DNA from: Pontibacterium granulatum
GTDB lineage: Bacteria; Pseudomonadota; Gammaproteobacteria; Pseudomonadales; Balneatricaceae
Direction of reading: 5' to 3'
DNA: 46,789 bases
Assembly: GCF_029961155.1 (NCBI RefSeq)
Contig: NZ_JASBRH010000033.1
Location: 1-46,789, forward strand
In this document: positions 18,720 through 42,718 of the stretch, in pieces
Layout of the letters: every line of letters starts with the position of its first letter
How positions within the stretch are numbered: position 1 is the first letter of the stretch
Program-made: the position numbers and the translations under genes
Notes under the pieces: generated by a model
Databases searched by the model: none
What the model saw: the letters and a program-made list of their open reading frames with translations, nothing else
Told to the model about the DNA's origin: nothing

Positions 18720-21700
18720 GTGCGGCTTATCTCCGTGTTAATCGCCTTATTGCTGAATATATCCGCATTTTCCGCCCATGCTAGTCAGGCCCATAGCCGA
18801 CTCTTGTTGAGCCAGAATCTGCAGTATTTTGGTGCCGTGGGCACACCTACGTGTGATGCTTTTCTGTCAATGGATAAACACTTTCCGATGGAGGTGATGT
18901 CCATTGAGTCCATCAAAGCCTGTCGTGCGGAGATAAAGGGTAAGTTTGCGCAGCTTCTTCGTCAGTTAACAAAACAAGACGGTAGCCGCGATATGGAGGT
19001 TACTGAGAAGGTGGCGGACCTGTTTGCCTGGGAAGGGTTGCTGATCTACTGGATTGGGCAACTCGATTTCCAGGACAGCGATGGCAACATCTTTGTTGCC
19101 AGTCAGAATGCACACCAGGCGGCTAACTACCTGAAGTCCGCTGAACCGGCGACCGTCAAGCTCCTTCGGACCCAAATGTTAGGCCTTGCACTCTATGCAA
19201 AAAGCCAAGTGTTGGGTGATATCGAGAACTATGAAAAAGCCATCCACACCCTCACGGACGTGCACGCCAAACTGGGGGAGGACAGCAACTTACTGTCTGA
19301 AGGCGATCGGATGTCGTTGCGTGCCTATTTAGCATATTGGTTGGGTATGCTGGCGATCGATAAAGCCTTGGCCACCCCTGTTGCTGTTGACTCGGATAGC
19401 TATGCGCAGCTTCGTTTTACGGCATACCGCTATTTGCAGCAAGCCTACGAGGAGGAAAGGGATGCCGAGACGCGGTTAGGGTATCTCCTGGCGCTGAAAG
19501 CGCAGCTTGGCTACGCCTCCCTTCACTCAAACCCTGATACTGCAGCCAGGATATACAGTGCTGAAGTATTGGCCGATCATATAGAGCGTGCTGCCGAAAC
19601 TGCGGGCAATACGCAGGTAAAAGTCTGGCACCTGATTGATCGGGCACGCGAGGCCGCGTTTAGCATCAAGTCTGTGGGCGATGCTGCTTATGTTCAGGTT
19701 TCAGATCTTTTGGCTCGGGCTGACCAGATCAGCACGCCACTCGATCTACGCCACTACCTGATTGATACAGCAAACTTGCGTATGGAGCTTGCGCTGCAAT
19801 TTGCAGATCAGGAAACCGTAGAAAGCGTGATGAATGAACTGATACAACAGGCTGCTTATCTTGGGCAATTGGCACAAGAGCAGTCGTTAGAGGCAGAGTT
19901 GTGGGTGAGCCGTTATTTCCTGCTGATTGATATCGTTGGGCAAGCCGTTGTGAGTTTTGGTGACACTGGTGATGCGGTGACTTTTTTTACAGAACTCAAC
20001 AACCAGGGCCTATCGTCAGCTGCACTCAATCTGTCGGCGTTGTATATCGAGCAGGGTGATTATCCATCTGCCATCGACACACTGACCAATATCAGTGAGG
20101 ACCTCTCTGGCATGGATCGGGTGGTGTACCGCCAAAATCTCAGCTTAGCGAGGCATCTTGCAGGCGATCTGGAGGGGGCCATTGCTGTATTGTCAGAGGA
20201 GAATTCACCCTCTGACTTGGCCGTTGCCTATCAGGTGTCGCTTTTGGCGTTGAATAACCAACGTAACGAAGCGCTTGAATTGATTATCAAACATGCGGGG
20301 GCAGGTTACGGGGCTCTGGCACAATCGTTAAACCGTACCGCGCTTGAACTGTATCAGTCCCATAATCAGGGGGCCAAGGCAGGCTCGATCCTCAATACGC
20401 CTGTACCCCTGTATAGCTTTATCAACAGACTGGTCTTTAACAGCGACATTGAAAAGAATGGTTTCCCTTACTTTCAGGGGGCTGCAACACGTACTGCCGA
20501 AACCGGGGCCACGCTGGTCACGGGGATTAAAAATGATGATTGGGCGACAGTCAGTCAACTCAGCACAAACGGCCAAACCGTTGCATTAGCCAACGGCAAC
20601 CAGATCACCCTCTGGGGTTCGGATAACGGACTGCCTTTCCGGCGTATCAACAGCAGCGATCGCGTGCAATACATGGACTTTCTCCATAATGATCAACACC
20701 TGCTAGTGCAAAGCGCTGATAACTTACTGACCTTGTGGGCGCTTGAAACGGGCGAGGCGCTGTATACCCTGCCGGTCAGCAGCAATATCTGGAAAGCCTA
20801 TGCTATCAACCGTGCTGAAGGCTCTCTGTATTTCTCGAATCCGTATGCCCAGTTGGTTGAAATGGATTCTCATGATCCGGCTACGACGCGTATTGTTGAA
20901 GCGGCTAACGGGAGCGTGATTTTTACTACGGATGATCGGGGCAAGCGTTTGTTCTTTGTGAGCGACGGGCAACTGTTTGTCTATGATCTTGAACGCCAAG
21001 CTATACAGCATCGTGTTCCTGTTAGTGGATACGTAAGAGAGCTGACATATATTCCCGGTGTGCAGCAGCTTCTCACTTTGACAGATAAAGGGTTTAACCC
21101 CAACGGCGAGGTGGATAAGGATAAGTACCGTCTTGCCGTCTGGAGCCTGAATGACGGCTTACATGAAGTCACACACTTTGCTTTTGCCAACGCAGTACAT
21201 GTTGTAGGTGCCGTGGAGGAGGGGCGTAAGGTTCTCCTGACATCCAGAGATGGTGATATCCGGTTGGATATGCAGGCACTGCATTTGCAGCCCTTGGCTG
21301 ATGCGAAAGATAGCAGGTTTGTGGCGCTATCGGAGTCGCGTGATCGCGCAATCGTGAGCGATAAGAATTCCAGGAATCTACGTGTGGTTGACTACCCCTC
21401 GTCAAAGCTCGTTAACAGGCTTAAACAGCCTACTTCTGATCCGGGCCTGGTATTCTACGATGAGGAACGCGAACGGTTGATGGTTTCGTCCAGTTACGAC
21501 CGGTTGCATATCTGGGATATGAGTACCGGGCAGGAGATCGTGCGTGAAAAACACTATCCCCGGGTTAATCCGGGGTATATCAACGGTCAGCTGATTACGC
21601 TAATTGATGAGGTACAACGGTACTCACCGGAGAAAAACCGCTGGGGACATTTCGAGCAGGGGACTTTGATGACTCAGCCCCTGTCTTTGCCTAAGGAGAT

Positions 21701-23837
21701 CGTTGATAGCAACGTACGTGCGGACCTTCAGGTATTCGAGTCTGGCGAGCAGCTTTACTTTACGGCCTGGGATCAGTATCTGGGTGACACGCGTCAGCGC
21801 CGTATCTGGCGGAGCAACGTCGATATGACTGAGGTTAAGTTACTGCCTTGGACATTGGAAGGTGAGCGTATCGGCGCAATCGATTCAAACGCGCAGCGGT
21901 TAGTCACAGCCAGTGCAAAAAAGGTGCTTATCCGGTCCCTGCAAGATGGCGTGATCCGGGCGGAGATCTCCATTGCTAGTGAATATGGTGGTTTCGACGA
22001 TCTCGAACTGACCTGGGTTGATGTAGAGAACCAAACCATCTGGATTGGTGTTGATAACCACTTGGTGGGTTACGATTTTGAAGGTAATCCAAAGGTTCGT
22101 TTTTCAGATGAGTTTGGCCGTTTGATTGCCGTTGCAGGTCATCCAACTGCATCGCACTTTATCGCTGCTTATGAAATCTCCGGCTCTACGCTCCTGCGTA
22201 AAGTCGATCGACAATCCGGTTCGGTTGTACGTAGTGACGTACTGTTTGATCGTATCGCAAAAGGGATCAACTTATCTTCAAAAGGCCGCTACCTGATGGT
22301 ATCTACGGAAGTCGGCAGTATCGAGTTCTGGTCGCTCACCAAAAATGAGGCCATGTTCTCGATGTACCTGTTGCCGGATAAAACCTGGGCGGTGATTGAT
22401 CAGCAGGGACGCTTTGATACCAATGACCTGAGCAACATTGATTTTCTGGCCTGGCGCCTGCCACAGGAACCGTTGCGTTCCTACCCAGTTGATATCTTCC
22501 TGCGAAACTTCTACGAGCCACGGCTGATTCCCCGGTTACTCAATGATGCACCGTTCAGTCCGATTCCTGATTTGCGTCGAATCAATCGCTGGCAGCCCGA
22601 GGTCGAGATTACGCAGGTGGAGGACGACGGCAAAGGCAAACTCAATGTCACGGTGGAACTGAATAAAGGCGCGTGGCCTGATTCAGCTCAGACAAAAGCC
22701 TACGATCTTCGGTTATTCCGTAACGGTCAGCAGGTGGATGTGTATCCGCAAGATCATGGCGAGATCGACTTAAGTGATAGCGGCAGCAGGGTCATCGTGT
22801 TTAAACAGGTTGCACTGCCGAATCTGCAAAAGGGACAGGCGGTGGAGTTCAGCGCAATGGCGTTTAATGCTGCTGGGGTCAAAAGTCAGACAGCCTATGC
22901 GCAGTACGTGCCCGAGAAGACAGGGATAATCCAGCCACCCCGTGCTTTCATCCTGAACGTGGGCATCGACCACTACACCAATCCCGCCTGGAATCTGGCA
23001 TTTGCTGGTAATGATGCCCGGCTGCTGGCAACGACATTGGCAGACAATGTTAAGGCATCTGGAGACTATGCATCGATTGGTCGTAAAATGCTGGTGACTC
23101 AGCCCGGTCAGTTTATCGATAAAGCGCAAATTCGAGCTGCGATTCAACGTCTGGCGAATGCGGGGAGTTCCGATAGCACCGATCCCGAAGGGTTTGCACA
23201 AAGCACACCCAATGACACAGTGATCATGACCTGGTCGGGACACGGCTATGTGGATCAGGCGGGCGAATTCTATCTCCTGACCTCGACTATGGGGCCGGAC
23301 TCTGTAGATATGCAGGACAATCTCCAGGGCGCCGTCAGCGCTACGGAACTGTCCCGTTGGATAGAAGGGATTGATGTGCATCGCTTCATTCTGATTATCG
23401 ATGCTTGCCACTCCGCAGCTGCGGTGGACAGCGGCGCGTTTAAACCGGGGCCGATGGGCAGTAAGGGATTTGGCCAGTTGGCCTGGTACAAAGGGATGCA
23501 GATTCTGACGGCCAGCCAAGCCAACGATGTTGCCCTGGAAAGCAGTCTGCTTGAACATGGTTTGCTGACCTATGCGCTTGTGAACGATGGACTCGTGAAC
23601 GAGCAGGCAGACTTCCTGCCGCAGGACGGTGTGCTTACCGCCAGTGAATGGTTGAAGTTTGGTCAACAGCGTGTGCCTCAGATCTACCGGCTTTTAAAAG
23701 CAGGTAACAGCTCTGCGCTGAAGTTGAGTCGCGGGGCAAAACGTAAAAACAGGCCGCGGGTTGAAAAGGTGCAGATGCCGGGACTATTTGATTTCTATCG
23801 TGGTGACCAAACCATGCAACTACATACGAACCATTAA
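18720..23837 (+). CDS. Giant exported caspase-like (C14) protein with helical-repeat and propeller regions
   Basis: A 1705-residue protein. It starts at GTG 18720, six bases after TAAGGAG, and has a signal peptide (LISVLIALLLNISAFSAHA). Residues about 30-570 are helical with TPR-like stretches (for example around ALYIEQGDYPSAIDTL). Residues about 600-1240 look like one or two WD40-type propellers, with repeated blades ending in patterns like LTLWALETGEALY and LHIWDMSTGQEI. A beta-rich linker follows. A caspase domain occupies about 1405-1640: it opens RAFILNVGIDHYTNPAWNL and has the dyad His1508 (WSGHGY) and Cys1563 (IDACHSAA). It is probably a periplasmic orthocaspase cutting after a basic residue. 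The substrate is unknown; it converges on the PPC gene. Confidence 0.88.
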   Translation: MRLISVLIALLLNISAFSAHASQAHSRLLLSQNLQYFGAVGTPTCDAFLSMDKHFPMEVMSIESIKACRAEIKGKFAQLLRQLTKQDGSRDMEVTEKVADLFAWEGLLIYWIGQLDFQDSDGNIFVASQNAHQAANYLKSAEPATVKLLRTQMLGLALYAKSQVLGDIENYEKAIHTLTDVHAKLGEDSNLLSEGDRMSLRAYLAYWLGMLAIDKALATPVAVDSDSYAQLRFTAYRYLQQAYEEERDAETRLGYLLALKAQLGYASLHSNPDTAARIYSAEVLADHIERAAETAGNTQVKVWHLIDRAREAAFSIKSVGDAAYVQVSDLLARADQISTPLDLRHYLIDTANLRMELALQFADQETVESVMNELIQQAAYLGQLAQEQSLEAELWVSRYFLLIDIVGQAVVSFGDTGDAVTFFTELNNQGLSSAALNLSALYIEQGDYPSAIDTLTNISEDLSGMDRVVYRQNLSLARHLAGDLEGAIAVLSEENSPSDLAVAYQVSLLALNNQRNEALELIIKHAGAGYGALAQSLNRTALELYQSHNQGAKAGSILNTPVPLYSFINRLVFNSDIEKNGFPYFQGAATRTAETGATLVTGIKNDDWATVSQLSTNGQTVALANGNQITLWGSDNGLPFRRINSSDRVQYMDFLHNDQHLLVQSADNLLTLWALETGEALYTLPVSSNIWKAYAINRAEGSLYFSNPYAQLVEMDSHDPATTRIVEAANGSVIFTTDDRGKRLFFVSDGQLFVYDLERQAIQHRVPVSGYVRELTYIPGVQQLLTLTDKGFNPNGEVDKDKYRLAVWSLNDGLHEVTHFAFANAVHVVGAVEEGRKVLLTSRDGDIRLDMQALHLQPLADAKDSRFVALSESRDRAIVSDKNSRNLRVVDYPSSKLVNRLKQPTSDPGLVFYDEERERLMVSSSYDRLHIWDMSTGQEIVREKHYPRVNPGYINGQLITLIDEVQRYSPEKNRWGHFEQGTLMTQPLSLPKEIVDSNVRADLQVFESGEQLYFTAWDQYLGDTRQRRIWRSNVDMTEVKLLPWTLEGERIGAIDSNAQRLVTASAKKVLIRSLQDGVIRAEISIASEYGGFDDLELTWVDVENQTIWIGVDNHLVGYDFEGNPKVRFSDEFGRLIAVAGHPTASHFIAAYEISGSTLLRKVDRQSGSVVRSDVLFDRIAKGINLSSKGRYLMVSTEVGSIEFWSLTKNEAMFSMYLLPDKTWAVIDQQGRFDTNDLSNIDFLAWRLPQEPLRSYPVDIFLRNFYEPRLIPRLLNDAPFSPIPDLRRINRWQPEVEITQVEDDGKGKLNVTVELNKGAWPDSAQTKAYDLRLFRNGQQVDVYPQDHGEIDLSDSGSRVIVFKQVALPNLQKGQAVEFSAMAFNAAGVKSQTAYAQYVPEKTGIIQPPRAFILNVGIDHYTNPAWNLAFAGNDARLLATTLADNVKASGDYASIGRKMLVTQPGQFIDKAQIRAAIQRLANAGSSDSTDPEGFAQSTPNDTVIMTWSGHGYVDQAGEFYLLTSTMGPDSVDMQDNLQGAVSATELSRWIEGIDVHRFILIIDACHSAAAVDSGAFKPGPMGSKGFGQLAWYKGMQILTASQANDVALESSLLEHGLLTYALVNDGLVNEQADFLPQDGVLTASEWLKFGQQRVPQIYRLLKAGNSSALKLSRGAKRKNRPRVEKVQMPGLFDFYRGDQTMQLHTNH

Positions 23838-23944
23838 ATTAGTTAACGCTGCACGGAATATGAGATGTCGAGCGACGGTCTAACTCAGCGTTTGGATTGA
23901 AACTGATACTTAAACTCCGGTTGGTTGGTCCTGATATTTTATTG

Positions 23945-23985
23945 GTCTCCCTATTCAAGCTAAATACACGCCTGAATAGGGAGAC
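23945..23985. terminator. Hairpin between convergent caspase and PPC genes
   Basis: GTCTCCCTATTCA and TGAATAGGGAGAC form a perfect 13-pair stem around a 15-base loop, midway between two convergent stop codons. T-runs are poor on both strands, so a role as bidirectional terminator is likely but not certain. Confidence 0.6.
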
Positions 23986-24020
23986 GTTATCTATGATTTG
24001 TAAACTGCGAGATCCGAGAT

Positions 24021-24713
24021 TTACTCAAAAATCATGGTGTAGTCGTTATATACGGTACCCAGGTTTTTTATTTTGATCTCAAACTCGCCAGTCCAACGAG
24101 GGGTCCAGCGGCAAAGCATCGTGTCGGAGCCGTCGGTGTCTTTGCAGATTTGGTTGCCGTTCTCGTCGTAAACGTACAGGTCCAGATCCGTATCGCCATC
24201 CCCACTCACAAAGACAGCGGCCTGTTCGCCCCCTTTGAAGTTCAGAGTGTAGATATCATTACGTCGCGCTTTAACACGATCCGAGTGGATTGCCGGGCCT
24301 CCAACCAAGCCTCGTGCACGTACTTCTTCCTGAGCGTCGATCAGGGCGAGTACAGGTTGTAACTGCTGTTCGGTCGCCAGCTCACGGGCAAGTTCGAGAG
24401 GGGATAGTTGTGGGTCTGAAGACTTTTTCGTGGCGGATTCGGACAGTCCGTTACCGGTTACCTGCTTGCTTTGCTTATCTTCTTTGGTGGGAATTGCGGC
24501 TTGCATTCGGGCTGCGACTAACAGGACAAGAGGATCCTGGTTTTCTACACCGTAATCGATTAACTGCGATGCCATAGCCAGTTTTTCAACAGCGGAAGTG
24601 GGGCTGTCGGTAGATGCTTCACCGGCATTGATGTCTTTACCCGAGTTAGCATTGGCAGAAAAACTGATCACAGCTGCGACTATTCCTACAGCCAGCGTAT
24701 TCTTTAACAGCAT
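24021..24713 (-). CDS. Exported PPC-domain-like protein
   Basis: A 230-residue precursor with a signal peptide ending near FSANANSG. The middle part is helical and polar (about 40-145). Residues about 150-230 form a bacterial pre-peptidase C-terminal (PPC) type beta-sandwich: the run DTDLDLYVYDENGNQIC, then WTPRWTGEFEIKIKNLG and a final YTMIFE. PPC modules occur as C-terminal accessory domains of secreted peptidases; here the domain stands on a separate protein in the middle of a caspase locus. Two cysteines (in NQICK and TMLCRW) may form a disulfide. It lies 263 bases after the FecR-like gene, so it probably has its own promoter. Confidence 0.8.
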   Translation of the reverse strand: MLLKNTLAVGIVAAVISFSANANSGKDINAGEASTDSPTSAVEKLAMASQLIDYGVENQDPLVLLVAARMQAAIPTKEDKQSKQVTGNGLSESATKKSSDPQLSPLELARELATEQQLQPVLALIDAQEEVRARGLVGGPAIHSDRVKARRNDIYTLNFKGGEQAAVFVSGDGDTDLDLYVYDENGNQICKDTDGSDTMLCRWTPRWTGEFEIKIKNLGTVYNDYTMIFE

Positions 24714-24976
24714 ATTGGCACTCCTGGTTTGCTTATGATGTTTGAATCGACCGAAAAACTCCTACCGGCCCCAAACAAATAAACATAGTTACCTAACACG
24801 TACAAGAACTTTAATAGGTTCTGATGCATGTATCGCGTTAAATGGAATTGGCTGATCGAGGCAGTAAGGTTTAGTGTCGCATCCGTACGTTTATCCCCGA
24901 AAACTAAGACGCTACTCAGAGTGCTGGTGCTGTGAATGGCCTCAGGGTAGTGGCACTTAAGTTCATGAGTGGCGTT

Positions 24977-25816
24977 TTATTGCCGAAGTGATTTCAGCAC
25001 CTCTATGGCGAGCGGATTGCCTTCATTGGCTTGCAGACTCAGCTGCTGCAGCGCTTCAAATTGCCAGTTACCATCTTTTTGCTCATACAACCAGACTGAA
25101 TAGAGAACTGAAGCGGTTTCAACAGGCGTCTGGTCTGTAATCAGCGAATCAGGTACTGGAGGAAGTTGGTCCTGGGCGATGGTTTGCAGCGTGTACCGCA
25201 ATTGCTGGTTGCTGTCGGACAGTGTCACGAGAACGTCATTGGGAAGGCCTGAGGCAGTCGCTAGTTGCACGCTCTGGTCTGACGTTGTCACTTCATATAG
25301 CTGGGCGTCTGTTTCGGCATTCGTAAGGATCAGGGTAAAGGGCGGCACACCGTTCTGCCACGCAAAATGCAGACTGTCTCTGGATTGCACCAGGGGGGAG
25401 ATAGAGTTCAAACCGCTGATGGAGAGTCCACGGCCCCTGGATATTGCACCCACGTCGCGTGTCGAGGAATCGGTCCAGAGCAGAGATGCAACCTTCTGGC
25501 TGAGATTCGACAGTAAACCCGGCTCCTCTTCAGGTACGACTCTGAAGGGAGATAATACTGAATCGATCTTAACCTGTTTGCCATTGACCATGAGCGAGAG
25601 CGTTGCGTGTTTGTCCGTCACAACGACGGTATCGCCAAGAAACAACGGCGCCAGTGGTGTTAGTGTGCGCTTTTGACCGGCCCGTTCCACATAGTAGCCA
25701 TCTTGGGGCGCCTGCACGCGTTCTATCCAGCCCAACTGGCTAATTGTGTCGGCCTTTACCGGCAAGGTAAGGGCGAGCAGGACAAGGTGAATCAGGAAGA
25801 AGGGCTTTCTAAACAT
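24977..25816 (-). CDS. Exported FecR-like protein
   Basis: A 279-residue precursor with a clear signal peptide (FFLIHLVLLALTLPVKA). The first mature half carries a FecR-type beta domain: LFLGDTVVVTDKHATLSLMVNGKQVKI (about 58-85). The second half (about 140-220) looks like an Ig-like beta sandwich (LHFAWQNGVPPFTLIL), followed by a short helical tail with WLYEQKDGNWQFEALQQL. It lacks a cytoplasmic anti-sigma part, so it is a free periplasmic protein. Its start overlaps the end of the CHASE2 gene by 25 bases, which strongly suggests translational coupling and a shared function. Confidence 0.8.
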   Translation of the reverse strand: MFRKPFFLIHLVLLALTLPVKADTISQLGWIERVQAPQDGYYVERAGQKRTLTPLAPLFLGDTVVVTDKHATLSLMVNGKQVKIDSVLSPFRVVPEEEPGLLSNLSQKVASLLWTDSSTRDVGAISRGRGLSISGLNSISPLVQSRDSLHFAWQNGVPPFTLILTNAETDAQLYEVTTSDQSVQLATASGLPNDVLVTLSDSNQQLRYTLQTIAQDQLPPVPDSLITDQTPVETASVLYSVWLYEQKDGNWQFEALQQLSLQANEGNPLAIEVLKSLRQ

Positions 25817-27216
25817 GAGTCTTCTTGTTTTTTAGTTTTGAATTTGTATTCCGCAATGGCGAGCAGTTCATGCAGTTCGACGGCAATCAGGGGTAACGTG
25901 AAATCCAGCCATACTCCCTCTTTAAACACGATGCAGGCGATTGGGAAAATAACAAATACCACCAAGCCGGTGGAGAGTAGGGATGCACGTCCTGGCGGAT
26001 TGGTTGTGAATAGCAGACTGATCCCGATCAGTAGCCCCAGCTCGATAAGCAGAATGACCGGTAGCGGTGGTGGTTCTATTTCACCAATGCTGAACAGCGA
26101 GTGCACCGCATTGACGATCACCAGGCTGCCCGGCATAAGGCCTAATGGGGTCGCGTGGAGATCCCCACCGTACTGGCTGCTGTTGCCGATAATCACGACG
26201 TGGTTTTTTAGCAGCGCTGTATCGGGTATAACCGGTGACTCAGTAACGATGTGGGCGGGAATAATTGTCAGCGCTTTGAATCGATATGCCTGACCGTCTT
26301 CCTTTAAGGTGGTGTCAGGAACGCCCGCGTTGCTGTTCAGATATGAGGGCCAGCCAATGTTGAACATAATAAGGCGCTGCAGATCACTCCCTTGCCAGTG
26401 AATATCATGCTCACCGGCTTGCACGGTAGTATTGAGCAACCCCGGTCTTGCCTTTTTCCAACCGAGACAGCTTGACGGTGTGAGTTTTTCCATCGCAACG
26501 TAAAAGTTTCTTGCAGTAGGGTCACTGTAAACAGCTAGCAGTAAGAGCTGGCTGGACGGAATCAATCGTGGTTCGTGGTTGCTGCAACCCGCAACCCACT
26601 GTTTCCAACGGCGTAGTATAAAATCACTGTCAACCTCAAATAGCGGCGATGCCCAGTGGTAGTGTGCGGTTTTCGCGACCAGTGAATCCAGGGTAGAAGG
26701 GCGAAGTTCTCGATAGCCATCTGCGTTTTTCGGGCTCAATTCACGGAACGTTTTCATCAGGATCAGAGGTGGTGAACCTGCATCGGGCGAGCCGAATGTG
26801 TTCAGCACTGATTCAATGGGCTGACTATCCACCGGGAGGTTGAGATCGATATCAAGGATCACGGCTTTGGCCTGACTGGACAGCGCATATTCCAAAAGCT
26901 GGGCGAGTTTATCCCTTGGGGTGACAACCGGCTCCCCCCATGCCAGGTGGCTGTCGCTGTCTATGTCCAGAAAAACAAAGGGCGGTACATCTTCCAGATC
27001 GCTGTTGGACTGCAGGCGTAGCATCAGGTCGAATCCCTGTGCCACCTGACTGGAAATGAATTTTAAATCCTGGGCTTTATGAACGATCAGTACAACAATT
27101 ATTCCGATAAAGCAGTTGATCAGAATATGCCGGGTATGTCGATTGAGCTTACCCCAGTAACGTCCATATTGTGTTGTGATCGCTGACACCTGCACTCCAT
27201 CTGATAAGAGATTCAT
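25792..27216 (-). CDS. CHASE2-domain membrane sensor without output domain
   Basis: About 474 residues. A first membrane helix (HILINCFIGIIVVLIV) is followed by a CHASE2 extracellular sensor domain of about 280 residues, with the typical opening FDLMLRLQ ... VPPFVFLDIDSDSHLAWGEP. The usual three helices come next (PVILLIELGLLIGISLL, LLSTGLVVFVIFPIACIV, LIAVELHELLAIA). CHASE2 proteins normally continue into a cyclase, kinase or GGDEF domain; this one stops about 20 residues after the last helix (KFKTKKQEDSCLESPSS). The start is uncertain: ATG at 27216 is used, but TTG at 27249 and GTG at 27189 (GGAG upstream) are possible. It overlaps the FecR-like gene. Confidence 0.82.
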   Translation of the reverse strand: MNLLSDGVQVSAITTQYGRYWGKLNRHTRHILINCFIGIIVVLIVHKAQDLKFISSQVAQGFDLMLRLQSNSDLEDVPPFVFLDIDSDSHLAWGEPVVTPRDKLAQLLEYALSSQAKAVILDIDLNLPVDSQPIESVLNTFGSPDAGSPPLILMKTFRELSPKNADGYRELRPSTLDSLVAKTAHYHWASPLFEVDSDFILRRWKQWVAGCSNHEPRLIPSSQLLLLAVYSDPTARNFYVAMEKLTPSSCLGWKKARPGLLNTTVQAGEHDIHWQGSDLQRLIMFNIGWPSYLNSNAGVPDTTLKEDGQAYRFKALTIIPAHIVTESPVIPDTALLKNHVVIIGNSSQYGGDLHATPLGLMPGSLVIVNAVHSLFSIGEIEPPPLPVILLIELGLLIGISLLFTTNPPGRASLLSTGLVVFVIFPIACIVFKEGVWLDFTLPLIAVELHELLAIAEYKFKTKKQEDSCLESPSS

Positions 27217-27386
27217 GCCCAATATATTGAGTTTGCTAACGTGCTGCAAAGCTAAGATAGCTGGATGCCCAATATTGTCGGAAAAAGGGGCAGGTCTTTA
27301 TTAACCCGCTACGAAACGCGCGTGGTTTATCAGACTGGATTGATTGTGGTTGAATAGTAGCCTGATCCCATAAAAGGACTTTTCCC
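27217..27386. promoter_or_regulatory. Divergent promoter region of the CHASE2 operon and second caspase gene
   Basis: About 170 bases separate the CHASE2 and 725-residue caspase genes, so both are likely to be controlled from here. The 11-base direct repeat ATGCCCAATAT occurs at 27215-27225, over the proposed CHASE2 start, and at 27265-27275, exactly 50 bases apart. This is about five helical turns and so a possible regulator site. The ribosome site AAAAGGA (about 27372-27378) serves the caspase gene. Confidence 0.45.
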
Positions 27387-29564
27387 GTGAACATGTTGCC
27401 GAAAATCTGTCTGCTACTTTCCTGTCTTGTGTTTTCTGTTGTCGCGAAGGCTGAAAAGCGAGCGTTATTGGTCGGTGTCACTTCATACCCTCAACTTAAA
27501 GATGCGGACTTGGTTGGCCCCAAAAACGACACCGAGTTAGCGTATCAGGTGTTGGTTGAGCGTGGTTTTCAGAAAGAGAATATTACATTGCTCAGTGAGA
27601 GCGAGAAGGCGTCTGCTAAACCGACGCGGGAACAAATTCTGGGTGAGTTGGAGGCACTGGTAAAGTCAGCGCAAGCGGGAGATTTTTATTACCTGCATTT
27701 CGCAGGGCATGGATCTCGACAGCCTGCCGCCGCAACGGACAACACTGAAACAGATGGGCTGGATGAGATCTTTCTGCCCTCGGATGCGTCTGAATGGGAC
27801 AGCTATATCGGGGCCGTCAAGAATGCTATCACCGATGACGAAATTGCGGGTTATCTGGACCGCATTCGTGATAAGGGAACAGATGTATGGGTGGTGTTTG
27901 ATAGCTGCCATTCCGGCACTATGACCCGTGGTGGTTCTTTGCAGGATGTGCGCTATCGGCAACTATCACCGGCCAGTCTGGGTATTCCCGAGTCAGCGTA
28001 TGGCTCAGCAAGTGGGTCTGTTGTTTCGCGTGGCTGGAACGATGAATCCGAAAATGAAACGCCCGCGTTTAGCCTCATGAGTGATCTGTCAGCGAGCGAC
28101 TCGAACAATAATACACGGGGGGCGTTGATTGCATTTTCTGCCGCACAGGCGACTCAGACAACGCCGGAAATGCGTTTGCCGCGTCAGGGCGATGAGCGTC
28201 GTTATCATGGACTGTTCACATTCACGTTGATGAACGCACTTTCGCAATACAAGGGGCTTAGTTACGACCAGCTTGGTCAGTATATTCTTGGCCAATACCG
28301 TATGCTGCCCTGGCGTAACAGCCAGCCTCTGATCAGTGCAACAGATCTGAATGCCACTGTATTTGGCGAGGAGCCGTCCTCCATTAAAATATGGCCAGTA
28401 TCAAAGGCCGGCAAGGAACTGGTCATACAGGCAGGGCAAATGCAGGGCTTCGCGATGGGTACGGGGGTCTCTTTGTATAAGTCCGTTGTCGCCGGTGAAG
28501 CAGACCTGCTGGGGACTGCGGAAGTGGTGAAGGCAAGTCCGCTGTCCAGTCGCGCAAAACTGTTATCGACAACAGTCAAGAAGTTGCCGCGACAGGTGTT
28601 TGCTGTAATTACTAATCCAGTCGTCGATTTTTCTCTTTCTGTTCAGGCTGTTGCATCAAAGGAGATGACTGCGGATCAACTGAAAGTCCTACAGCAGGTT
28701 GTAGCCGAGGTGACAAAGGGAAGTCCTTTGCTGCGCCAATGGCAAGCGGGAGACGAGGCGGATCTCAGAGTGAGTATGTTTGAGAACTCGCTGTGGTTCT
28801 TGCATGCAGATCAGAGTTTGCCATGTGATCAGCAGCTGTTAAATGCAGAAGAACTGGCATCCTGCAGCGCATTGCGTTCACCACAACGTTTGCTTAATCA
28901 GCCTGTGGACGGCGTTCGTAAAGCCGAGTTGGTGGATGCTGCAGGCAGCGGCCTGAACCGCATTGCGCGGGGGGAAAATATCGTCCGAATGCAGCAGTTG
29001 GTGTCACATGCGGGGTTAAAAGGTTCATCTAAGATCAAAGTCGATCTGAGCATGACACGAAATGGCCGGGTTCAAGCGTATCCAACAACAGCGATACCGG
29101 TTTTTAAAGAGGGTGATGAAGTGTCTGTGACCATCACCAACATTTCAAAGAAATCCCAGGACATTAGCGTTCTGTATAAAGATAGCCGGTACGGCATTAC
29201 TCAGTACTTTCCGGAACAATCCGGTGAAGTGAACCGTATTGAACCGGGCAAATCGGTGACCATTGAGTTGGAACTGTACCCAGAGCCGGAAGGATTGGAA
29301 GATCTGATTATCCTGAGCCAACCCGCGACGGGTTTAATGCAGGATTTCGCATTTCTGGAACAGGAGGCGTTGGGTATCGCTACCCGTGGATCTGCACTTT
29401 TGCCAACAGGTAGCAGTCAGGGACTGATGAAAGCCCTATTCGCGGCAGCTGGCGGTAGTGGTGAAACGGCTAACGAGGCGATAGGGAAAACCAGGGGAGG
29501 GAAACGCAAGGCCAACGTCGAGGTTGGGGCGATGGAGGTATATCGCTGGGAAGTTGTGGAGTAA
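27387..29564 (+). CDS. Exported caspase-like (C14) protein with DUF4384-like C-terminus
   Basis: A 725-residue protein with a signal peptide (ICLLLSCLVFSVVAKA). The caspase domain spans about residues 24-310: it opens KRALLVGVTSYPQLKDADLVGPKNDTE and carries the dyad His108 (HFAGHGSRQ) and Cys174 (FDSCHSGTMTRGG). A middle region follows. The segment near 555-660 (VSVTITNISKKSQDISVLY, GITQYFPEQ, IEPGKSVTIELELYPEPEG) matches DUF4384-type beta domains often attached to exported caspases. The start has AAAAGGA upstream. It diverges from the CHASE2-FecR-PPC genes. After its TAA the frame stays open for 45 more codons. Confidence 0.9.
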   Translation: MNMLPKICLLLSCLVFSVVAKAEKRALLVGVTSYPQLKDADLVGPKNDTELAYQVLVERGFQKENITLLSESEKASAKPTREQILGELEALVKSAQAGDFYYLHFAGHGSRQPAAATDNTETDGLDEIFLPSDASEWDSYIGAVKNAITDDEIAGYLDRIRDKGTDVWVVFDSCHSGTMTRGGSLQDVRYRQLSPASLGIPESAYGSASGSVVSRGWNDESENETPAFSLMSDLSASDSNNNTRGALIAFSAAQATQTTPEMRLPRQGDERRYHGLFTFTLMNALSQYKGLSYDQLGQYILGQYRMLPWRNSQPLISATDLNATVFGEEPSSIKIWPVSKAGKELVIQAGQMQGFAMGTGVSLYKSVVAGEADLLGTAEVVKASPLSSRAKLLSTTVKKLPRQVFAVITNPVVDFSLSVQAVASKEMTADQLKVLQQVVAEVTKGSPLLRQWQAGDEADLRVSMFENSLWFLHADQSLPCDQQLLNAEELASCSALRSPQRLLNQPVDGVRKAELVDAAGSGLNRIARGENIVRMQQLVSHAGLKGSSKIKVDLSMTRNGRVQAYPTTAIPVFKEGDEVSVTITNISKKSQDISVLYKDSRYGITQYFPEQSGEVNRIEPGKSVTIELELYPEPEGLEDLIILSQPATGLMQDFAFLEQEALGIATRGSALLPTGSSQGLMKALFAAAGGSGETANEAIGKTRGGKRKANVEVGAMEVYRWEVVE

Positions 29565-31326: not shown

Positions 31327-34300
31327 CTACTTTTCGCTAGTAGGTTTTTCCCTCGGTTTGGTTTCACCCCACGGGTCAGTGCTCGCCGTAGCCACTTTCA
31401 GCTGCTTTTTCCATAGCAGTCCATGGCTGAAACGTTGCCAGCCCCAACGCAGCCATCTCAGCATGGCAAAAACCAACCAGAGAGACCAGGCCAGCATTGT
31501 GAGTCTGTATACCCAGATAGGCAGGGAGAACACCCAGCCTTGGGGTAAAGTCTCACTGGATATATCCTGATACCAGTTAAAGAGGAAGTTATTGCTAAAG
31601 TTGCCTAATACTTTCATGTCTGGTGTCGCCAGCAGGCTGAACGGTATTGTCGCCAGGAGGCAGCCCAATGCGGCAATCGAGAGCGTAAGCAGGGCGAGTT
31701 GAGTCAGGTTGTACTGCCAGCGTGGCAGTTGTGCAGAGAGTTTTTGCCGACGCTCAAAGGCAAAGAACCAAACAGCGATCAGTAGTCCGCCGACCGCTGT
31801 CACCGTGCTGACACCAAGCCCTAATAAGATCCATTGATATGCTCTTACAGGAATGTCTAAGCGGAAATGGCGTACGCTCCAGCCCAGGGCCAGCGCGATC
31901 AGAATGATTACGATTAATATGCTCCAATAAAGCATGGCGGGACCGATCGCTGGTCCACCTAGAAGGAGTGGCCAGCGGTCGTGGGGAAGGAGGAGCGTCA
32001 GGTCGATATTATTGGCCGGGGTGGAAAGGTGCAGCTGTGGTGTTTTCATAAGCAGCGAGTCATCAAGCGACTGCCGCCAGCTAATCTGGATGTATTGCAG
32101 GCCTGGGTGCAGCGGTAATTTTAAGGGCCGCTGCTCGCTTTGGATAATTTGTGGTTGGCCATCGATCTCAATTTCGTGGACCTGGGCATTGTCTGGTAGC
32201 GTCACAGCATACTCACCGCCATGACTGGCTCGGATCTGCAGGCTAAGGGTGGATTCACTCATACGTGCACCGGGACGGTGGGCCAGGGCAACATGTTCAA
32301 GCGTCTGGGATGCACCTGCCACAGCTTCAGGACGTGTGATAGCCAACTGTAATTGATCGCCCGGCGAGGGGCGCCACTCGGGACGGGGATCCACTGTTTG
32401 GGCATCCTGTTTGATCGGATTGATACCCGTTGATTGGATATGCCAGATCGGTGCTGCCTTCAGGCGCCAGTGTTCAATCCAATGATCGATTCCGGGGGCT
32501 GTCAGGGTAATGAGTTCAGTGACCGGAAGACTGGAACGCCAACTGACAAGGGACTGGTCTGGACTCATGGTCACGATCGCCTCACCTCTTTCTACCCGTT
32601 GATCCTCGCTCAGCACCGATTCATTCGGCAGTAGGGGGAGATTGAGGTTAATTGTTCCACGGCGCGGCGCAACGCGGCGTACTTCTGTTACTACCTCCCA
32701 CTCCAATCCCAATTGCAGCGTGCGTACGACGGTCACAAAGGGAGGGGCAGAATCAGGCAGCAGGCGTTCCTGTGCTGTATCCTGAGTGGTTTTGACCTTG
32801 CGCTCAAGCTGCAGGGAATCTCCCGGCACAGCCGTATCAACAAGTCCTGCGACCTGCCAACCGGGCGCGTTTAGCGTGACATTTCGCGGTTTGAGTGGGA
32901 ATTGAACCGTGGCGGTATCGTCTGCCAGAGTGCCAAGCAGCGTGATTTGGTGATTGCCCTCAGGAAGCATGACTGATAGCTGACCCTGATGGTTACGCCC
33001 CAGCACCGGACTTGGTTGTCCATCCAGCGTGACGGCCGAAGCCGCCCACGTGTTGCGTCCATGTGGCAGGGGGATCTCGATCTGTTCCAGCGCATCGACC
33101 GCCAACCGAATCTGTATCTGCTGTCCGTTCACCTGGATGTGCATGCGCTGAATGGCAGCGCAGTCGGGCACACAGGTTGGGGGGCGGGTAAGCCGGTTCT
33201 CTAACTGTTCTAGTAACTGTGCTGGAGGAAAAGAGGCTTCGGCCTGAGGGGAGGCAACGCCGAGTGCAATGGTTAGTGCGATCGCTGAGAGTGCCCCTGT
33301 AGCTGACTCGCACGACGCTGGATGGTGTTGTTTCCAGCCTGATTGACGTAACAGACTGAATAGCCACAGGGCCAGCAAAGCTACAGTCGTAAAACGCCAG
33401 AGACGTGTCATGAATGGACTTATCACGTAGAGCTGCATGGTTTGTGATTGGGTGACCGGTCCACTCCAGGAGAGCCCAACACGGTGCCACTGCCATTTGG
33501 GTTCACCGGGCCCGGTTTGAATGCGCCCAGCCGGGTCCAATTCCAGGGATTTTGTGACTTTGTGTTGTTGCATAAGAAGGGGCGCTTCACCGGTCGGTGT
33601 CCTCAGTACACTCTCTTCACGAGATAGTGCGTCGGCAACCTCCCTCGTACGGGGTTCGTAGCTGAAGGGACGGTGGATCGCCTGGGTAAGTTCCAATTGG
33701 GGATAGATACCTTTGCGGATCTGATCGACCGAAAAATTGATCCCTACCATAAGCAGTGCCAGTATGCTGACCAACTGATAACCTCGCAGCAGCTTTTTCA
33801 TTTTGCCGGTTGGTATAACTCTGAGTAGTCCGATGACCAAGATCAAATTGAGCCAGAGTCCAACCGGGGCAAAGGGCTCATGGTAGGTCAGCGCTAAGGT
33901 TATCCCTGCCAGTACGCCCCAGTGCAGACGTGTAATACGTGCCATCGCGCCGGCAATCAGAAGACAGAGGAAAAGGTCCCATAGTGTCCAGCGAGACAGC
34001 CAGGAGAGGCTGACCTGATCGACACCGCTCGCATGCAGCAGACGCCAGCCCGGCGGCAGGTTCAGGGTCCCGGATGCTTGGTTAACATGTTGATTCCATC
34101 CCACCACCGGCAGACTACTGCTCGTGACAGAGAAGGGCAACTCCACCCGGCTGAGTGTTTCCAGCGACAGGCTTCCGGGGGAAACCTCCAGGCCTGGTTC
34201 TTCATCCGGCAGCACAGTGATCAGTTGGGGGATACCGTTAAGCGACGCACGCCCCAGCGTATAAGTGGGTACCATACGAAAGCGGTCGGTCCGATGGATG

Positions 34301-35403
34301 AGCCCGCTCATCTGGTCTTTAACGGTGAGCCCCTGACCATCAAAGTCCAGCCAGAACTGGCGCTTAAGGCTAAGATCGCTGGGGGGCGGCGAGGCATCTC
34401 CGCGATAGCGTTCTTCGAGTTTGAATATGTCTTCAGGGGTGATCAGATAGGTTGGCAGGGCTTGCCAGGCGGCCGGTGCTTCGACCTGTTTGGGATCAGT
34501 CAGGCGGGGCCCTTGTATCTCGACACCGCGTAGGTGGCGTTGATGCTGAAACGCCCAGACTTCCTGCTCCGGCCAGTTTTCATCTTGGCGTTCCATAGCC
34601 AATGTGGATACGGGATGGTTGAAGCGTGCCTTGAGGCGCACAATCCAGTTGCCGGGGCGGAGTTGAATACGCAATCGGCCATCTGGCTCTATGCGGGCAG
34701 GAAGAGGAGACCGCAACCACAATGGCGTTGAATCGGCCAGTAACAGACGTCCGAGCAGGACCTCACGCTCGTGCCCAGAAACGGTTAGTTGCAGTTCTGT
34801 CTCGACTGTCAGAGGCAGAGCGTCCACCAGCTTACGGTAGACTCGGGCATTGAGGGTATCGATCACTTCCGTCGTCGCGGTCTCCTGTTTACCCAGCCAG
34901 AGGCGTCCGTTTTCAAACACCGGGCTGGAGACCTGCTTTCCGTCTACACGCAATGACAGCAGCCCGGTGTCCGTCGGAATCGGGAGGAAGCGTGGTGGTT
35001 CTCGCCACCGTAAATGGCCTCGGAGTTCGTATTGTCCTGGATCTAACAACACCGAGGGAACGCCGTTGTGTTCAGTAACTTTTAACGGGGAGCCGTTGGC
35101 GCTCACGTCGGTCGGCCAGAGGGTAGTGCTGCCGGGGAGAGTGATCCAGCTTTCTGCATAGAGAGTCCACTGCTGGATGAATTGCGCTTGTGTGTTGTCG
35201 GTGGTGACCTCCAGACGACTGGGCCAAGCGCAGCGCTTCTGGTCGAATCGGTTATAGAGGAAGGGGCAGGCGAAGGACAGGTGCTCCCTCATTACCCAAT
35301 CTTTCCAAGGTCTGAGAGGCTCGGGGACATTGAATTCCGCCATTGTCAGGTGGCTGAGGCTGAGCATTAGACAGCCCAGAAGAAGCAGAACCCGCTGTTG
35401 CAT
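31327..35403 (-). CDS. Very large exported/membrane protein of unknown function
   Basis: 1358 residues. It starts at ATG 35403 with GAGGAA upstream; the frame extends to 35454 but without a ribosome site. A signal peptide (VLLLLGCLMLSLSHLTMA) is followed by a beta-rich periplasmic part of about 440 residues, then about four helices (from WTLWDLFLCLLIAGAMA to SVDQIRKG). A second periplasmic part of about 420 residues comes after a helix near WRFTTVALLALWLFSLL and an internal signal-like stretch ending ASPQAEAS. Four C-terminal helices finish the protein. The two periplasmic parts resemble each other: both open with a cysteine pair, then W-x-...-G-x-P...-LPEG/DPGQY. I do not know the family. 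Confidence 0.75.
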   Translation of the reverse strand: MQQRVLLLLGCLMLSLSHLTMAEFNVPEPLRPWKDWVMREHLSFACPFLYNRFDQKRCAWPSRLEVTTDNTQAQFIQQWTLYAESWITLPGSTTLWPTDVSANGSPLKVTEHNGVPSVLLDPGQYELRGHLRWREPPRFLPIPTDTGLLSLRVDGKQVSSPVFENGRLWLGKQETATTEVIDTLNARVYRKLVDALPLTVETELQLTVSGHEREVLLGRLLLADSTPLWLRSPLPARIEPDGRLRIQLRPGNWIVRLKARFNHPVSTLAMERQDENWPEQEVWAFQHQRHLRGVEIQGPRLTDPKQVEAPAAWQALPTYLITPEDIFKLEERYRGDASPPPSDLSLKRQFWLDFDGQGLTVKDQMSGLIHRTDRFRMVPTYTLGRASLNGIPQLITVLPDEEPGLEVSPGSLSLETLSRVELPFSVTSSSLPVVGWNQHVNQASGTLNLPPGWRLLHASGVDQVSLSWLSRWTLWDLFLCLLIAGAMARITRLHWGVLAGITLALTYHEPFAPVGLWLNLILVIGLLRVIPTGKMKKLLRGYQLVSILALLMVGINFSVDQIRKGIYPQLELTQAIHRPFSYEPRTREVADALSREESVLRTPTGEAPLLMQQHKVTKSLELDPAGRIQTGPGEPKWQWHRVGLSWSGPVTQSQTMQLYVISPFMTRLWRFTTVALLALWLFSLLRQSGWKQHHPASCESATGALSAIALTIALGVASPQAEASFPPAQLLEQLENRLTRPPTCVPDCAAIQRMHIQVNGQQIQIRLAVDALEQIEIPLPHGRNTWAASAVTLDGQPSPVLGRNHQGQLSVMLPEGNHQITLLGTLADDTATVQFPLKPRNVTLNAPGWQVAGLVDTAVPGDSLQLERKVKTTQDTAQERLLPDSAPPFVTVVRTLQLGLEWEVVTEVRRVAPRRGTINLNLPLLPNESVLSEDQRVERGEAIVTMSPDQSLVSWRSSLPVTELITLTAPGIDHWIEHWRLKAAPIWHIQSTGINPIKQDAQTVDPRPEWRPSPGDQLQLAITRPEAVAGASQTLEHVALAHRPGARMSESTLSLQIRASHGGEYAVTLPDNAQVHEIEIDGQPQIIQSEQRPLKLPLHPGLQYIQISWRQSLDDSLLMKTPQLHLSTPANNIDLTLLLPHDRWPLLLGGPAIGPAMLYWSILIVIILIALALGWSVRHFRLDIPVRAYQWILLGLGVSTVTAVGGLLIAVWFFAFERRQKLSAQLPRWQYNLTQLALLTLSIAALGCLLATIPFSLLATPDMKVLGNFSNNFLFNWYQDISSETLPQGWVFSLPIWVYRLTMLAWSLWLVFAMLRWLRWGWQRFSHGLLWKKQLKVATASTDPWGETKPREKPTSEK

Positions 35404-35718
35404 GTCAGTTCCTCGCGATGCACGCCTAAAGGTCGGCGCAGTCAGAAAAAGCATAGCATCGAAAGTGGGTCCCGGAGGGCACTCTGCTGGGAGAAGGTCA
35501 TTTCCAGGCGTAGGCTAGGAAAGGTTATTCACCGCATGCCTTCAACGTGTCTTGCGGCAGATCGTTCCCCCGATAGCGCGTTCTATTAGCAGAACCTTGT
35601 CAGGCTCAGGTCAATTTTCCCCTTCATCACGCAAAACAAGACCGGCATGTTGCCTGTATAGCGCCAAGACCTTTAATGGACAGTTCCACAATCCATTGAA
35701 GGTCTGATGAGTCTCCCG
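35404..35718. other. Gap between the large membrane protein gene and the response regulator gene
   Basis: This 315-base stretch carries the promoter and leader of the large membrane protein (ribosome site GAGGAA just right of 35403) and the 3' hairpin of the response regulator (35668-35704). I see no gene in it. Confidence 0.45.
35668..35704 (-). terminator. Hairpin downstream of the response regulator
   Basis: GACCTTTAATGG and CCATTGAAGGTC pair over 12 bases with one mismatch, 15 bases after the regulator stop. T-runs are weak, so termination efficiency is uncertain. Confidence 0.55.
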
Positions 35719-40659: not shown

Positions 40660-40737
40660 CGTAGGTTGGTCTGAGCAGAGCGAAGCCCAACAGCTTAGAA
40701 CCGATGTTGGGCTTCACGATGTGAAGACCAACCTACG
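40660..40737. repeat. Long palindromic repeat unit (GTAGGTTGG type), copy 1
   Basis: CGTAGGTTGGTCT (40660-40672) pairs perfectly with AGACCAACCTACG at the other end. An inner stem GAAGCCCAAC/GTTGGGCTTC sits between them. A degenerate copy lies at 45601-45690. This is a REP or MITE-like dispersed repeat placed right after a stop codon, where it could also act as transcript end or stabiliser. Confidence 0.75.
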
Positions 40738-40786
40738 TCGATGTGCACCTGAAAAATAATAAACAGACACCGAAAGGTAGAAGACG

Positions 40787-42424
40787 ATGAAAACCAAAAT
40801 CCTCGCACCAACCGATAGCGCTTATCAGTATCCCCTGTTGATCAAAAGCCTGCTGCTGTCTGGACAGCGTTACGAACCGGGCCGTGAAATTGTTTACGGC
40901 GACAACATCCGCTACGACTACCGCACCCTCAACCAGCGTATCCGCAAGCTGGCCAACGTACTGACCAACGCCGGGATCGGTGCCGGTGATACTGTGGCAG
41001 TGATGGACTGGGACAGCCACCGTTATCTGGAAGCCTACTTTGCCGTACCGATGATTGGTGCGGTGCTGCACCATGTGAATATCCGCCTCAGCCCGGATCA
41101 GATCGCCTACACCATGAATCACGCCGAGGATGACCTGGTGCTGGTGCATGATGACTTCCTGGCAATTGCCGAAACCCTGGTGGATCAGATCCCGAGTGTG
41201 CGCGGTTACATCCAGCTGTCTGATGATGGCAAGCCGCTCTCGACCTCTCTGAACAGCCTTGGCGAATACGAAAGCCTTATCGCGGATGCCGATGATCAGT
41301 ACGAATTCCCTGACTTTGATGAGAACTCGGTTGCCACCACGTTCTACACCACCGGTACCACCGGCAATCCTAAAGGGGTGTATTTCAGCCACCGTCAGCT
41401 GGTGCTGCACACGCTGAATATGGCGACCACACTGGGCGCCTACGAGGGCCTGCCGCTGCTGCGATCTGACGATGTCTATATGCCGATGACGCCGATGTTC
41501 CATGTGCACGCCTGGGGTGTACCGTATGTGGCAACCATGATGGGTGTAAAACAGGTTTATCCGGGCCGTTACGAACCGAACAAACTGGTGCGCCTGTTCC
41601 GCGATGAGAGCGTGACCTTCTCGCATGGTGTGCCTGCCGTGTTGCAGATGATCCTGGGTTGCGACGAAGCCAAAGACACCGATCTGAGCGGCTGGAAACT
41701 GCTCACCGGTGGCAGCGCGCCAACCTTGGGCTTGGCACGTGAGATGGCCGAACGCGGCATCCTGTTCCATACCGCCTACGGCATGTCCGAAACCTGTCCG
41801 CTGCTGACCGCCACCTACCTGCACAGCAACGAGCGGGATGTAGCGATGAGCGATCAGATGCCCCAGCGCATCAAGACTGGGATGCCGTGTGGCATGGTCG
41901 ATCTGCGTATCGTTGATCCGGAGGGTAACGACGTACCCCACGACGGTGAAGCGATGGGGGAGGTGGTCGTGCGTGCACCCTGGCTGACCCAGGGGTACGC
42001 CAAAGAGCCGGAAAAAAGCGAGGAGCTGTGGGCCAATGGCTGGTTGCATACCGGCGATGTGGGCTCGATTGATGAAGCGGGTGTGCTGCAGATCAAAGAC
42101 CGCATCAAGGACGTGATCAAAACAGGCGGGGAGTGGATCTCCTCGCTGGAGCTGGAGAGTCTGATCAGTCAGCACGAGGCTGTTGGCGAAGTGGCCGTGG
42201 TGGGTGTTCCGGACGAGAAATGGGATGAACGACCATTGGCGCTGGTGGTTCCGGTGGCCGGCGCTGAACTCTGTGCAACGGTGTTGCAGGAACACCTGAA
42301 GCAGTATGTGGAAAGCGGCCGCATCAACAAGTGGGCGATCCCACAGGAGATCAACGTTGTCACTGAAATCCCGAAAACCAGCGTCGGTAAGATCAACAAG
42401 AAACTGATTCGTGAGCAGGTTTAA
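40787..42424 (+). CDS. AlkK-like acyl-CoA ligase
   Basis: A 545-residue adenylating enzyme, the size of the Pseudomonas AlkK medium-chain ligase (about 546). Motifs: TTFYTTGTTGNPKGVYFSH (P-loop, about 183-198), MTPMFHVHAWGVPY, GMSETCPLLT, LHTGDVGSIDEAGVL and the A8/A10 region IKTGGEWISSLELESL ... KTSVGKINKKLI. It activates a carboxylic acid to acyl-AMP, then the CoA thioester. Chain length cannot be read off; medium-chain or branched acids are plausible. It follows the binding-protein gene after 135 bases that contain a long palindromic repeat, so the two may still share a transcript. A 605-codon antisense frame is a shadow. Confidence 0.92.
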   Translation: MKTKILAPTDSAYQYPLLIKSLLLSGQRYEPGREIVYGDNIRYDYRTLNQRIRKLANVLTNAGIGAGDTVAVMDWDSHRYLEAYFAVPMIGAVLHHVNIRLSPDQIAYTMNHAEDDLVLVHDDFLAIAETLVDQIPSVRGYIQLSDDGKPLSTSLNSLGEYESLIADADDQYEFPDFDENSVATTFYTTGTTGNPKGVYFSHRQLVLHTLNMATTLGAYEGLPLLRSDDVYMPMTPMFHVHAWGVPYVATMMGVKQVYPGRYEPNKLVRLFRDESVTFSHGVPAVLQMILGCDEAKDTDLSGWKLLTGGSAPTLGLAREMAERGILFHTAYGMSETCPLLTATYLHSNERDVAMSDQMPQRIKTGMPCGMVDLRIVDPEGNDVPHDGEAMGEVVVRAPWLTQGYAKEPEKSEELWANGWLHTGDVGSIDEAGVLQIKDRIKDVIKTGGEWISSLELESLISQHEAVGEVAVVGVPDEKWDERPLALVVPVAGAELCATVLQEHLKQYVESGRINKWAIPQEINVVTEIPKTSVGKINKKLIREQV

Positions 42425-42496
42425 CCAACCGTTCGCCTCCGGTGTAAAACAAACTTTGTGTCCCTCAATAATCTTCTGATATCGATTATCGATCTT

Positions 42497-42530
42497 GGCC
42501 GGTGCATGGTGCGATGTACCGGTCTTTTTT
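42497..42530 (+). terminator. Rho-independent terminator after the acyl-CoA ligase
   Basis: GGCCGGTGCAT pairs with ATGTACCGGTC (two G-U or mismatched positions) around GGTGCG and is followed by TTTTTT. It lies 73 bases after the stop. Confidence 0.85.
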
Positions 42531-42718
42531 AGCTTTACTCTCCTGCACACACCTCAATGCCCTGTCCGAAATTATCAACTTAATGGCTTGATCGGTAATA
42601 GCTTCGCAGGTCAGAAACTAGCCAGAATAGTCCGTTAGACGTTTGTCTAGGTGGCGAGTTTTGACTGCTTTGAATTCAAAGCGGCCTACGCCACATATCT
42701 CCGACGTACCCAAGGGGC

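Follow-up and report, generated by a model that had tools for sequence, protein, structure and literature searches.

We analyzed a stretch of 46,789 nucleotides from the marine gammaproteobacterium Pontibacterium granulatum (contig NZ_JASBRH010000033.1; hereafter the window, which is contig C26 of the 4.66 Mb genome), and within it a locus of five genes in which a large WD40-caspase and a small caspase flank genes for a CHASE2 protein, a FecR-like protein and a PPC-like protein. The catalytic dyads of both caspases are conserved and several pairs of these genes recur in distant genomes, where the gene order suggests that the parts belong together. The separate links in gene order are most simply read as marking this locus as one instance of a modular sensor-protease system of the cell envelope, a reading to which we attach about even probability. 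Judging from hydropathy and from what is known of the families, such a system would act in the periplasm or beyond it. Bacterial caspases are known mainly as predicted cytoplasmic proteases of stress, death or defence; if the reading is true, a conserved exported caspase set with a membrane sensor and partners shifts part of caspase biology to the envelope.

The two caspases and their partners

All five open reading frames (ORFs) lie where the first-pass annotation had placed them. The small caspase (27387-29564, plus strand, 725 aa), probably exported, is a C14 protein with a metacaspase-like p20; it matches Pfam C14 with 70 bits, well above the cut-off, and with the dyad H108/C174 it belongs to the family. 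The match begins at residue 24, directly after a signal-like segment, and the closest relatives of the p20 in the PDB are metacaspases. The large caspase (18720-23837, plus strand, 1705 aa), also probably exported, gives WD40-type propeller matches in the Pfam scan and ends in a C14 domain scoring 19.1 bits in the protein scan and 22.7 bits in the genome search (Pfam cut-off 21.4); relatives of it were found in Amphritea, Marinobacterium and others. Its dyad, H1508/C1563, is present in the translation as had been claimed, and so is that of the small caspase. His and Cys are retained in all 12 aligned relatives of the large caspase, while the 35 aligned small caspases all keep His, Cys and the Asp two residues before Cys, a residue tied to basic cleavage specificity. 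Since the dyad and, in the small caspases, the Asp are conserved, these alignments make selection for catalysis likely. Genome-wide there are three C14 matches, two in the window and one on contig C66. Among 57 genomes searched, seven (the own genome included) gave small-caspase matches at E <= 0.001, spanning most of the protein in four of them (G000, G018, G002, G035).

CHASE2 (25792-27249, minus strand, 485 aa) is a membrane protein whose ORF opens with TTG and lacks a clear ribosome-binding site. It matches PF05226 with 64.6 bits against a cut-off of 26.3 and has the flanking hydrophobic segments (41-65, 396-414 and 424-442, by hydropathy), which places it in the family; Pfam recognises no cytoplasmic output domain in it. 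Its gene diverges from that of the small caspase across 137 bases (27250-27386), and it overlaps the FecR-like gene (24977-25816, minus strand, 279 aa, product probably exported) by 25 bases, as first described. Pfam lends the name of the latter no support: no match to FecR (PF04773) was found in the window protein or in three Alcanivorax relatives at E up to 1, nor in the protein of a further relative (L198) at 0.01. The single-sequence structure model of the window protein has a pLDDT of 37, too poor for a structure search, and "FecR" remains a label.

The PPC-like protein (24021-24713, minus strand, 230 aa), probably exported as well, fares better. It scores 16.1 bits against PF04151, under the cut-off of 25.9, and two of ten aligned members give a weak match to this family. 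An AlphaFold2 model from nine sequences (pLDDT 78) has a helical N-terminal half and a jelly-roll C-terminal half; Foldseek matches the model to the jelly-roll of the subtilisin Tk-SP (3afg) at the top, then to p24 GOLD domains, with collagenase binding domains (3jqw) at lower ranks and a PPC-named entry (5sv5) at rank 28. The label given by the first-pass annotation therefore fails at the Pfam cut-off and holds for the predicted fold: by the model the protein has a PPC-type jelly-roll, a fold shared beyond PPC, and "PPC-type fold" is a fair description. Cys 190 and Cys 201 are invariant in 10 relatives. The claim that all five proteins carry signal peptides or membrane helices holds at the level of hydropathy, each having a hydrophobic segment near the N-terminus.

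Gene order and second proteases in relatives

With tblastn the 57 genomes yielded, the window itself aside, a single weak match to the window's CHASE2 and none to its FecR-like protein, and profiles were needed. Run over 46 Alcanivoracaceae genomes, the FecR-like profile matched seven: three are Alcanivorax (L145-L147, identified from their contig coordinates), and four belong to a second genus (L195-L198), of which seven members had been searched. In all four of the latter, as in the window, a caspase gene diverges from CHASE2 and the FecR-like gene comes next, immediately in L196-L198 and with two genes intervening in L195; Pfam recognised CHASE2 in both of the genes examined (66 and 72 bits). 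The caspases of these four genomes share 33-35% identity with the small caspase of the window and lie outside its clade in a tree of 35 rows in which some deep forks are unsettled. Moreover, the order CHASE2, FecR-like, PPC is present in two Alcanivorax genomes that are close sisters (L145 and L147), and CHASE2 followed by FecR-like in L146; the FecR-like gene is thus downstream of CHASE2 in seven of seven relatives examined.

Within 341 genomes of the order, FecR-like matches of at least 60 bits occur in two (G000, G271) and PPC-like matches of at least 100 bits in two (G000, G060), and these three genomes are all among the five with caspase matches above 200 bits. Left out of these counts were FecR-like matches under 25 bits in five genomes, caspase matches under 200 bits (32 of the 37 matching genomes had only these) and PPC-like matches in G358 (41.8 bits) and G076 (20.6 bits). 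Taking together the scans of 341 and 46 genomes, which are overlapping sets, eight genomes have a FecR-like match of at least 60 bits; all eight also have a caspase of the small-caspase family, deduced for two of them from contig coordinates matching G366 and G368, and in five the FecR-like gene is adjacent to CHASE2.

PPC-like genes are found near caspases in Alpha-, Beta- and Gammaproteobacteria, and they adjoin the caspase in Amphritea, Rhodobacterales, Burkholderiales and plasmid records. The PPC-like frame lies at most 300 bases upstream of a caspase and on the same strand in G018, L037, L046, L047, L052, L058 and L100, and 3.6 kb from one in G060. Among 72,556 plasmid records, 48 have PPC-like matches (46 Pseudosulfitobacter, 2 Sinorhizobium) and 169 have caspase matches, including 46 Pseudosulfitobacter and 3 Sinorhizobium; the two genes are close together in each of the four records inspected (L199, L200, L202, L203), and for the other 44 the agreement is by genus tally only. 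CHASE2 gave no match on plasmids and nothing in a scan of the genome contig collection. The recurrence of such gene pairs in distant genomes is, on this comparison of sequences, more than chance. The five genes had been proposed as a linked set: the pairs stand, whereas one conserved five-gene unit was rejected, the homologues of the complete set being partly apart and those of the pairs not.

Two observations concern the surroundings of the PPC-like genes. The Pseudosulfitobacter plasmids (L199, L200/L204) carry a protease island: besides two caspases and two PPC-like genes it has two genes annotated as trypsin-like or serine proteases, one for a patatin-like phospholipase and a kinase/regulator pair; a CHAT gene is annotated in L204. 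In two Amphritea-type loci, related exported-looking proteins (L037:7845-8723 and L022:11346-12188) adjoin the PPC-like gene; one of the pair matches Exo_endo_phos, and the window cluster is without such a neighbour.

With the caspase alignment as query, 89 relatives turned up in the contig collection and 80 of them were kept; the fetched stretches reached at most 10 kb on each side of the caspase and were often ended by contig ends. Half of the loci (40) are titled Mesorhizobium and the counts were redone for the other 40; the profiles were built from few sequences, with thresholds uncalibrated on random loci. A WD40-caspase is near the small caspase in 46 of the 80 loci (18 of 40 outside Mesorhizobium) and a trypsin-like gene in 50 (13 of 40), a number that remained the same after removal of opposite-strand shadow frames caught by the first trypsin profile. 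CHAT is found in 16 loci, all of them outside Mesorhizobium (16 of 40), with at least 500 bits in seven and weak matches in the others; PPC-like genes in seven (7 of 40), sigma-like genes in six and CHASE2 of the window type in two. Some second protease, be it WD40-caspase, CHAT or trypsin-like, accompanies the caspase in 70 loci (31 of 40 outside Mesorhizobium). Pfam confirmed the representatives examined (trypsin-like, 8/8; CHAT giants, 3/3).

The own genome holds another caspase locus, on contig C66 at about 171000-193000 (L025, L034), composed of sigma-like and anti-sigma-like genes, a 119-aa exported-looking protein, a caspase paralogue (42% identical) and an ankyrin/CHAT giant of 3039 aa, of which the 2953 residues fetched carry CHAT with 186 bits. 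Since this further caspase is accompanied by a CHAT giant and a sigma/anti-sigma-like pair, the window probably belongs to a larger modular system and seems to contain some of its pieces; relatives have a CHAT giant, trypsin-like proteases and a sigma/anti-sigma-like pair, all absent from the window locus. Marinobacterium mangrovicola has a trypsin-like protease, a CHAT giant, the small caspase, a WD40-caspase, anti-sigma-like and sigma-like genes, and also CHASE2, then a 130-aa gene and a macroglobulin gene. The G002 locus joins a WD40-caspase, sigma, anti-sigma, the small caspase and a CHAT-type giant, while Amphritea OB2 (L037) has a WD40-caspase, a further gene (whose counterpart in G018 matches Exo_endo_phos in Pfam), PPC-like, the small caspase and CHAT. 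The sigma/anti-sigma-like pair adjoins caspase and CHAT in both Marinobacterium and Alcanivorax.

Other features of these loci were noted in passing. The alpha-2-macroglobulin gene of M. mangrovicola (L031:5086-10392) places a protease trap beside a protease cluster, which may be coincidence. In two genomes of the Alcanivorax genus (L187, L188), whose fetched stretches have no caspase, a paralogue from the same sigma-like family and the gene following it lie near a lipoprotein-like gene.

A possible mechanism and its alternatives

If the locus is a sensor-protease system, CHASE2, placed in the inner membrane on sequence grounds, and the FecR-like protein would sense an envelope cue in the periplasm and would control the small caspase, perhaps through the PPC-like protein. 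The small caspase might then cut after Arg or Lys, in analogy with orthocaspases, which cut after basic residues (PMC6426788), and would mature or work with a second protease, the WD40-caspase here and the CHAT giant or a trypsin-like protease in relatives. The sigma factor of related loci and its predicted membrane-bound anti-sigma factor, a pair also present on C66, could couple the state of the proteases to transcription. We infer the topology beyond hydropathy, the direct contacts, the cascade, its cue and its target, and the roles first proposed for the parts (sensing, holding, cutting) are likewise hypothetical; a caspase, a sensor and a possible adaptor are named, and the separate gene-order links point to the proteins on which contact tests could be made. 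A wider proposal, possible but doubtful, is that of a widespread modular proteobacterial network of envelope proteases, in which metacaspase, WD40-caspase, CHAT and trypsin-like proteases, all of them exported, would combine with a CHASE2/FecR-like sensor, a PPC-like adaptor and sigma/anti-sigma factors, a counterpart in logic, not in descent, of extracellular protease cascades.

Several results weigh against the sensor-protease reading. All five genes together were seen nowhere but in the window; within the fetched stretches, 78 of the 80 caspase loci gave no match to the CHASE2 profile and none of the 80 matched the FecR-like one. Given few cases and kinship among the genomes, there is no clean test of co-occurrence. 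In the three Alcanivorax genomes the operon of the output-less CHASE2 is on a contig other than that of the caspase/CHAT/sigma locus; the neighbouring CHASE2 of M. mangrovicola is just 15% identical to that of the window, and a FecR-like identity of the 130-aa gene that follows it is unsupported. In the related loci the sigma matches are under the cut-offs (Sigma70_r4, 22 vs 24.1 bits; NCBIfam sigma70-ECF, 39.1 vs 42.9), as is the anti-sigma-like match (zf-HC2, 14.6 vs 22.2 bits). The divergence of CHASE2 and the small caspase had been taken to imply a shared promoter, which found no support, the two sigma-70-like sites in the 137-base gap being no commoner than in shuffles (mean 3.9). Finally, in a crude scan of longest ORFs only 26 of 83 caspases and 16 of 44 WD40-caspases show a strongly hydrophobic segment at the N-terminus, probably an undercount caused by over-long ORF starts.

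Some of these points would suit a protease-rich neighbourhood without joint function, in which various proteases and accessory genes accompany the small caspase and each acts by itself. The make-up indeed differs from locus to locus, and 10 of the 80 loci, some of them short contigs, have no second protease by profiles; however, the same pairs keep their order or orientation in lineages with caspases of 30-55% identity to that of the window, and we consider this explanation unlikely. The locus might also encode secreted proteases for digestion or matrix remodelling, the PPC-like protein being a binding module and CHASE2/FecR-like an envelope anchor. PPC-type folds do occur in secreted proteases, according to the titles of the structure matches, and several protease families adjoin one another, but the PPC-like protein is a conserved, stand-alone protein with a helical half of its own, and a dedicated sensor-like partner would be unexpected for a digestive enzyme, which makes this the least credible explanation, with a very small probability.

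Defence or altruistic death, in which the CHASE2 side would detect injury to the envelope, or phage at the surface, and the caspases would in turn kill or arrest the cell, seems to us distinctly improbable. Most known defence caspases are not exported, whereas the components of this locus look exported by hydropathy. PADLOC gives only its generic caspase model (PDLC02987) for both caspases of the window and nothing for the other three proteins at E 0.001, which led us to reject assignment to a PADLOC-named system, and a Pfam scan of 13 flanking proteins of the window shows no mobile-element family. What speaks for defence is the patchy spread of the small caspase (present in two of five genus members searched), the plasmid location of caspase and PPC-like genes, the patatin-like phospholipase and histidine kinase of the plasmid set, a PDC-M72A match in PADLOC of the ankyrin half of the Amphritea CHAT giant (193 bits, perhaps through repeats), and a precedent in concept in EACC1/EACC2 systems (PMC7159879, PMC8195603). 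A phage origin was rejected, with one partial match in 50,697 phage records. The caspase might instead be a signal-transduction protease that cuts the periplasmic side of an anti-sigma factor and frees an ECF-type sigma factor; sigma and predicted membrane anti-sigma factors adjoin the caspase in Marinobacterium, Alcanivorax and G046, and the pair is on C66, yet sigma and anti-sigma profiles find nothing in the window and sigma is nearby in just the six loci counted above, leaving this explanation a slight probability.

The sensor-protease reading can also be compared with known systems. EACC2 systems combine a caspase with variable partner domains, sometimes CHASE2, and often adjoin an ECF sigma gene (PMC8195603), as caspase, CHASE2 and sigma do across the loci considered here; there, however, an EACC2 domain precedes the caspase, to which CHASE2 is fused (PMC8195603), while in the window CHASE2 is a separate protein and the C14 domain of the small caspase, directly behind its signal-like segment, appears to leave no room for a preceding EACC2 domain. 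DUF1822 has no match among the Pfam-scanned proteins. In EACC1 systems a caspase is joined by a membrane protein, and a sensor is proposed to trigger them (PMC7159879), a membrane-linked arrangement resembling the one proposed here; filing under EACC1 was rejected on the NCBIfam model of the EACC1-associated caspase (49.2 and 32.5 bits vs 140), the EACC1 gene itself not having been searched. In concept the system resembles EACC1/EACC2, though it is apparently exported and without the EACC constant domains. Prokaryotic metacaspases and orthocaspases share with the window caspases the C14 domain with its His-Cys dyad and WD40 as a common extra domain, and a metacaspase-CHASE2 fusion has been reported from Trichodesmium (PMC3501461, PMC2853523, PMC6426788); the caspase of that fusion is predicted to be cytoplasmic, whereas both caspases of the window look exported and CHASE2 has its own gene. 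A Burkholderia operon encodes a CHASE2 histidine kinase, an exported FecR-domain protein and a response regulator (PMC5192318), a CHASE2 and an exported FecR-type protein thus sharing one operon; unlike it, the window combines proteases with a CHASE2 in which no output domain is recognised, and its FecR-like protein is not established as a member of the FecR family. The open-access literature searched, outside which most subscription papers fall, gave no description of the present gene combination.

Elsewhere in the window, a protein of 1375 aa (31327-35454, minus strand) matches nothing in Pfam at E 0.001 or in NCBIfam at 0.1. Two long ORFs, of which the minus-strand one is without Pfam or NCBIfam match, overlap on opposite strands (40733-42550, minus, and 40787-42424, plus).

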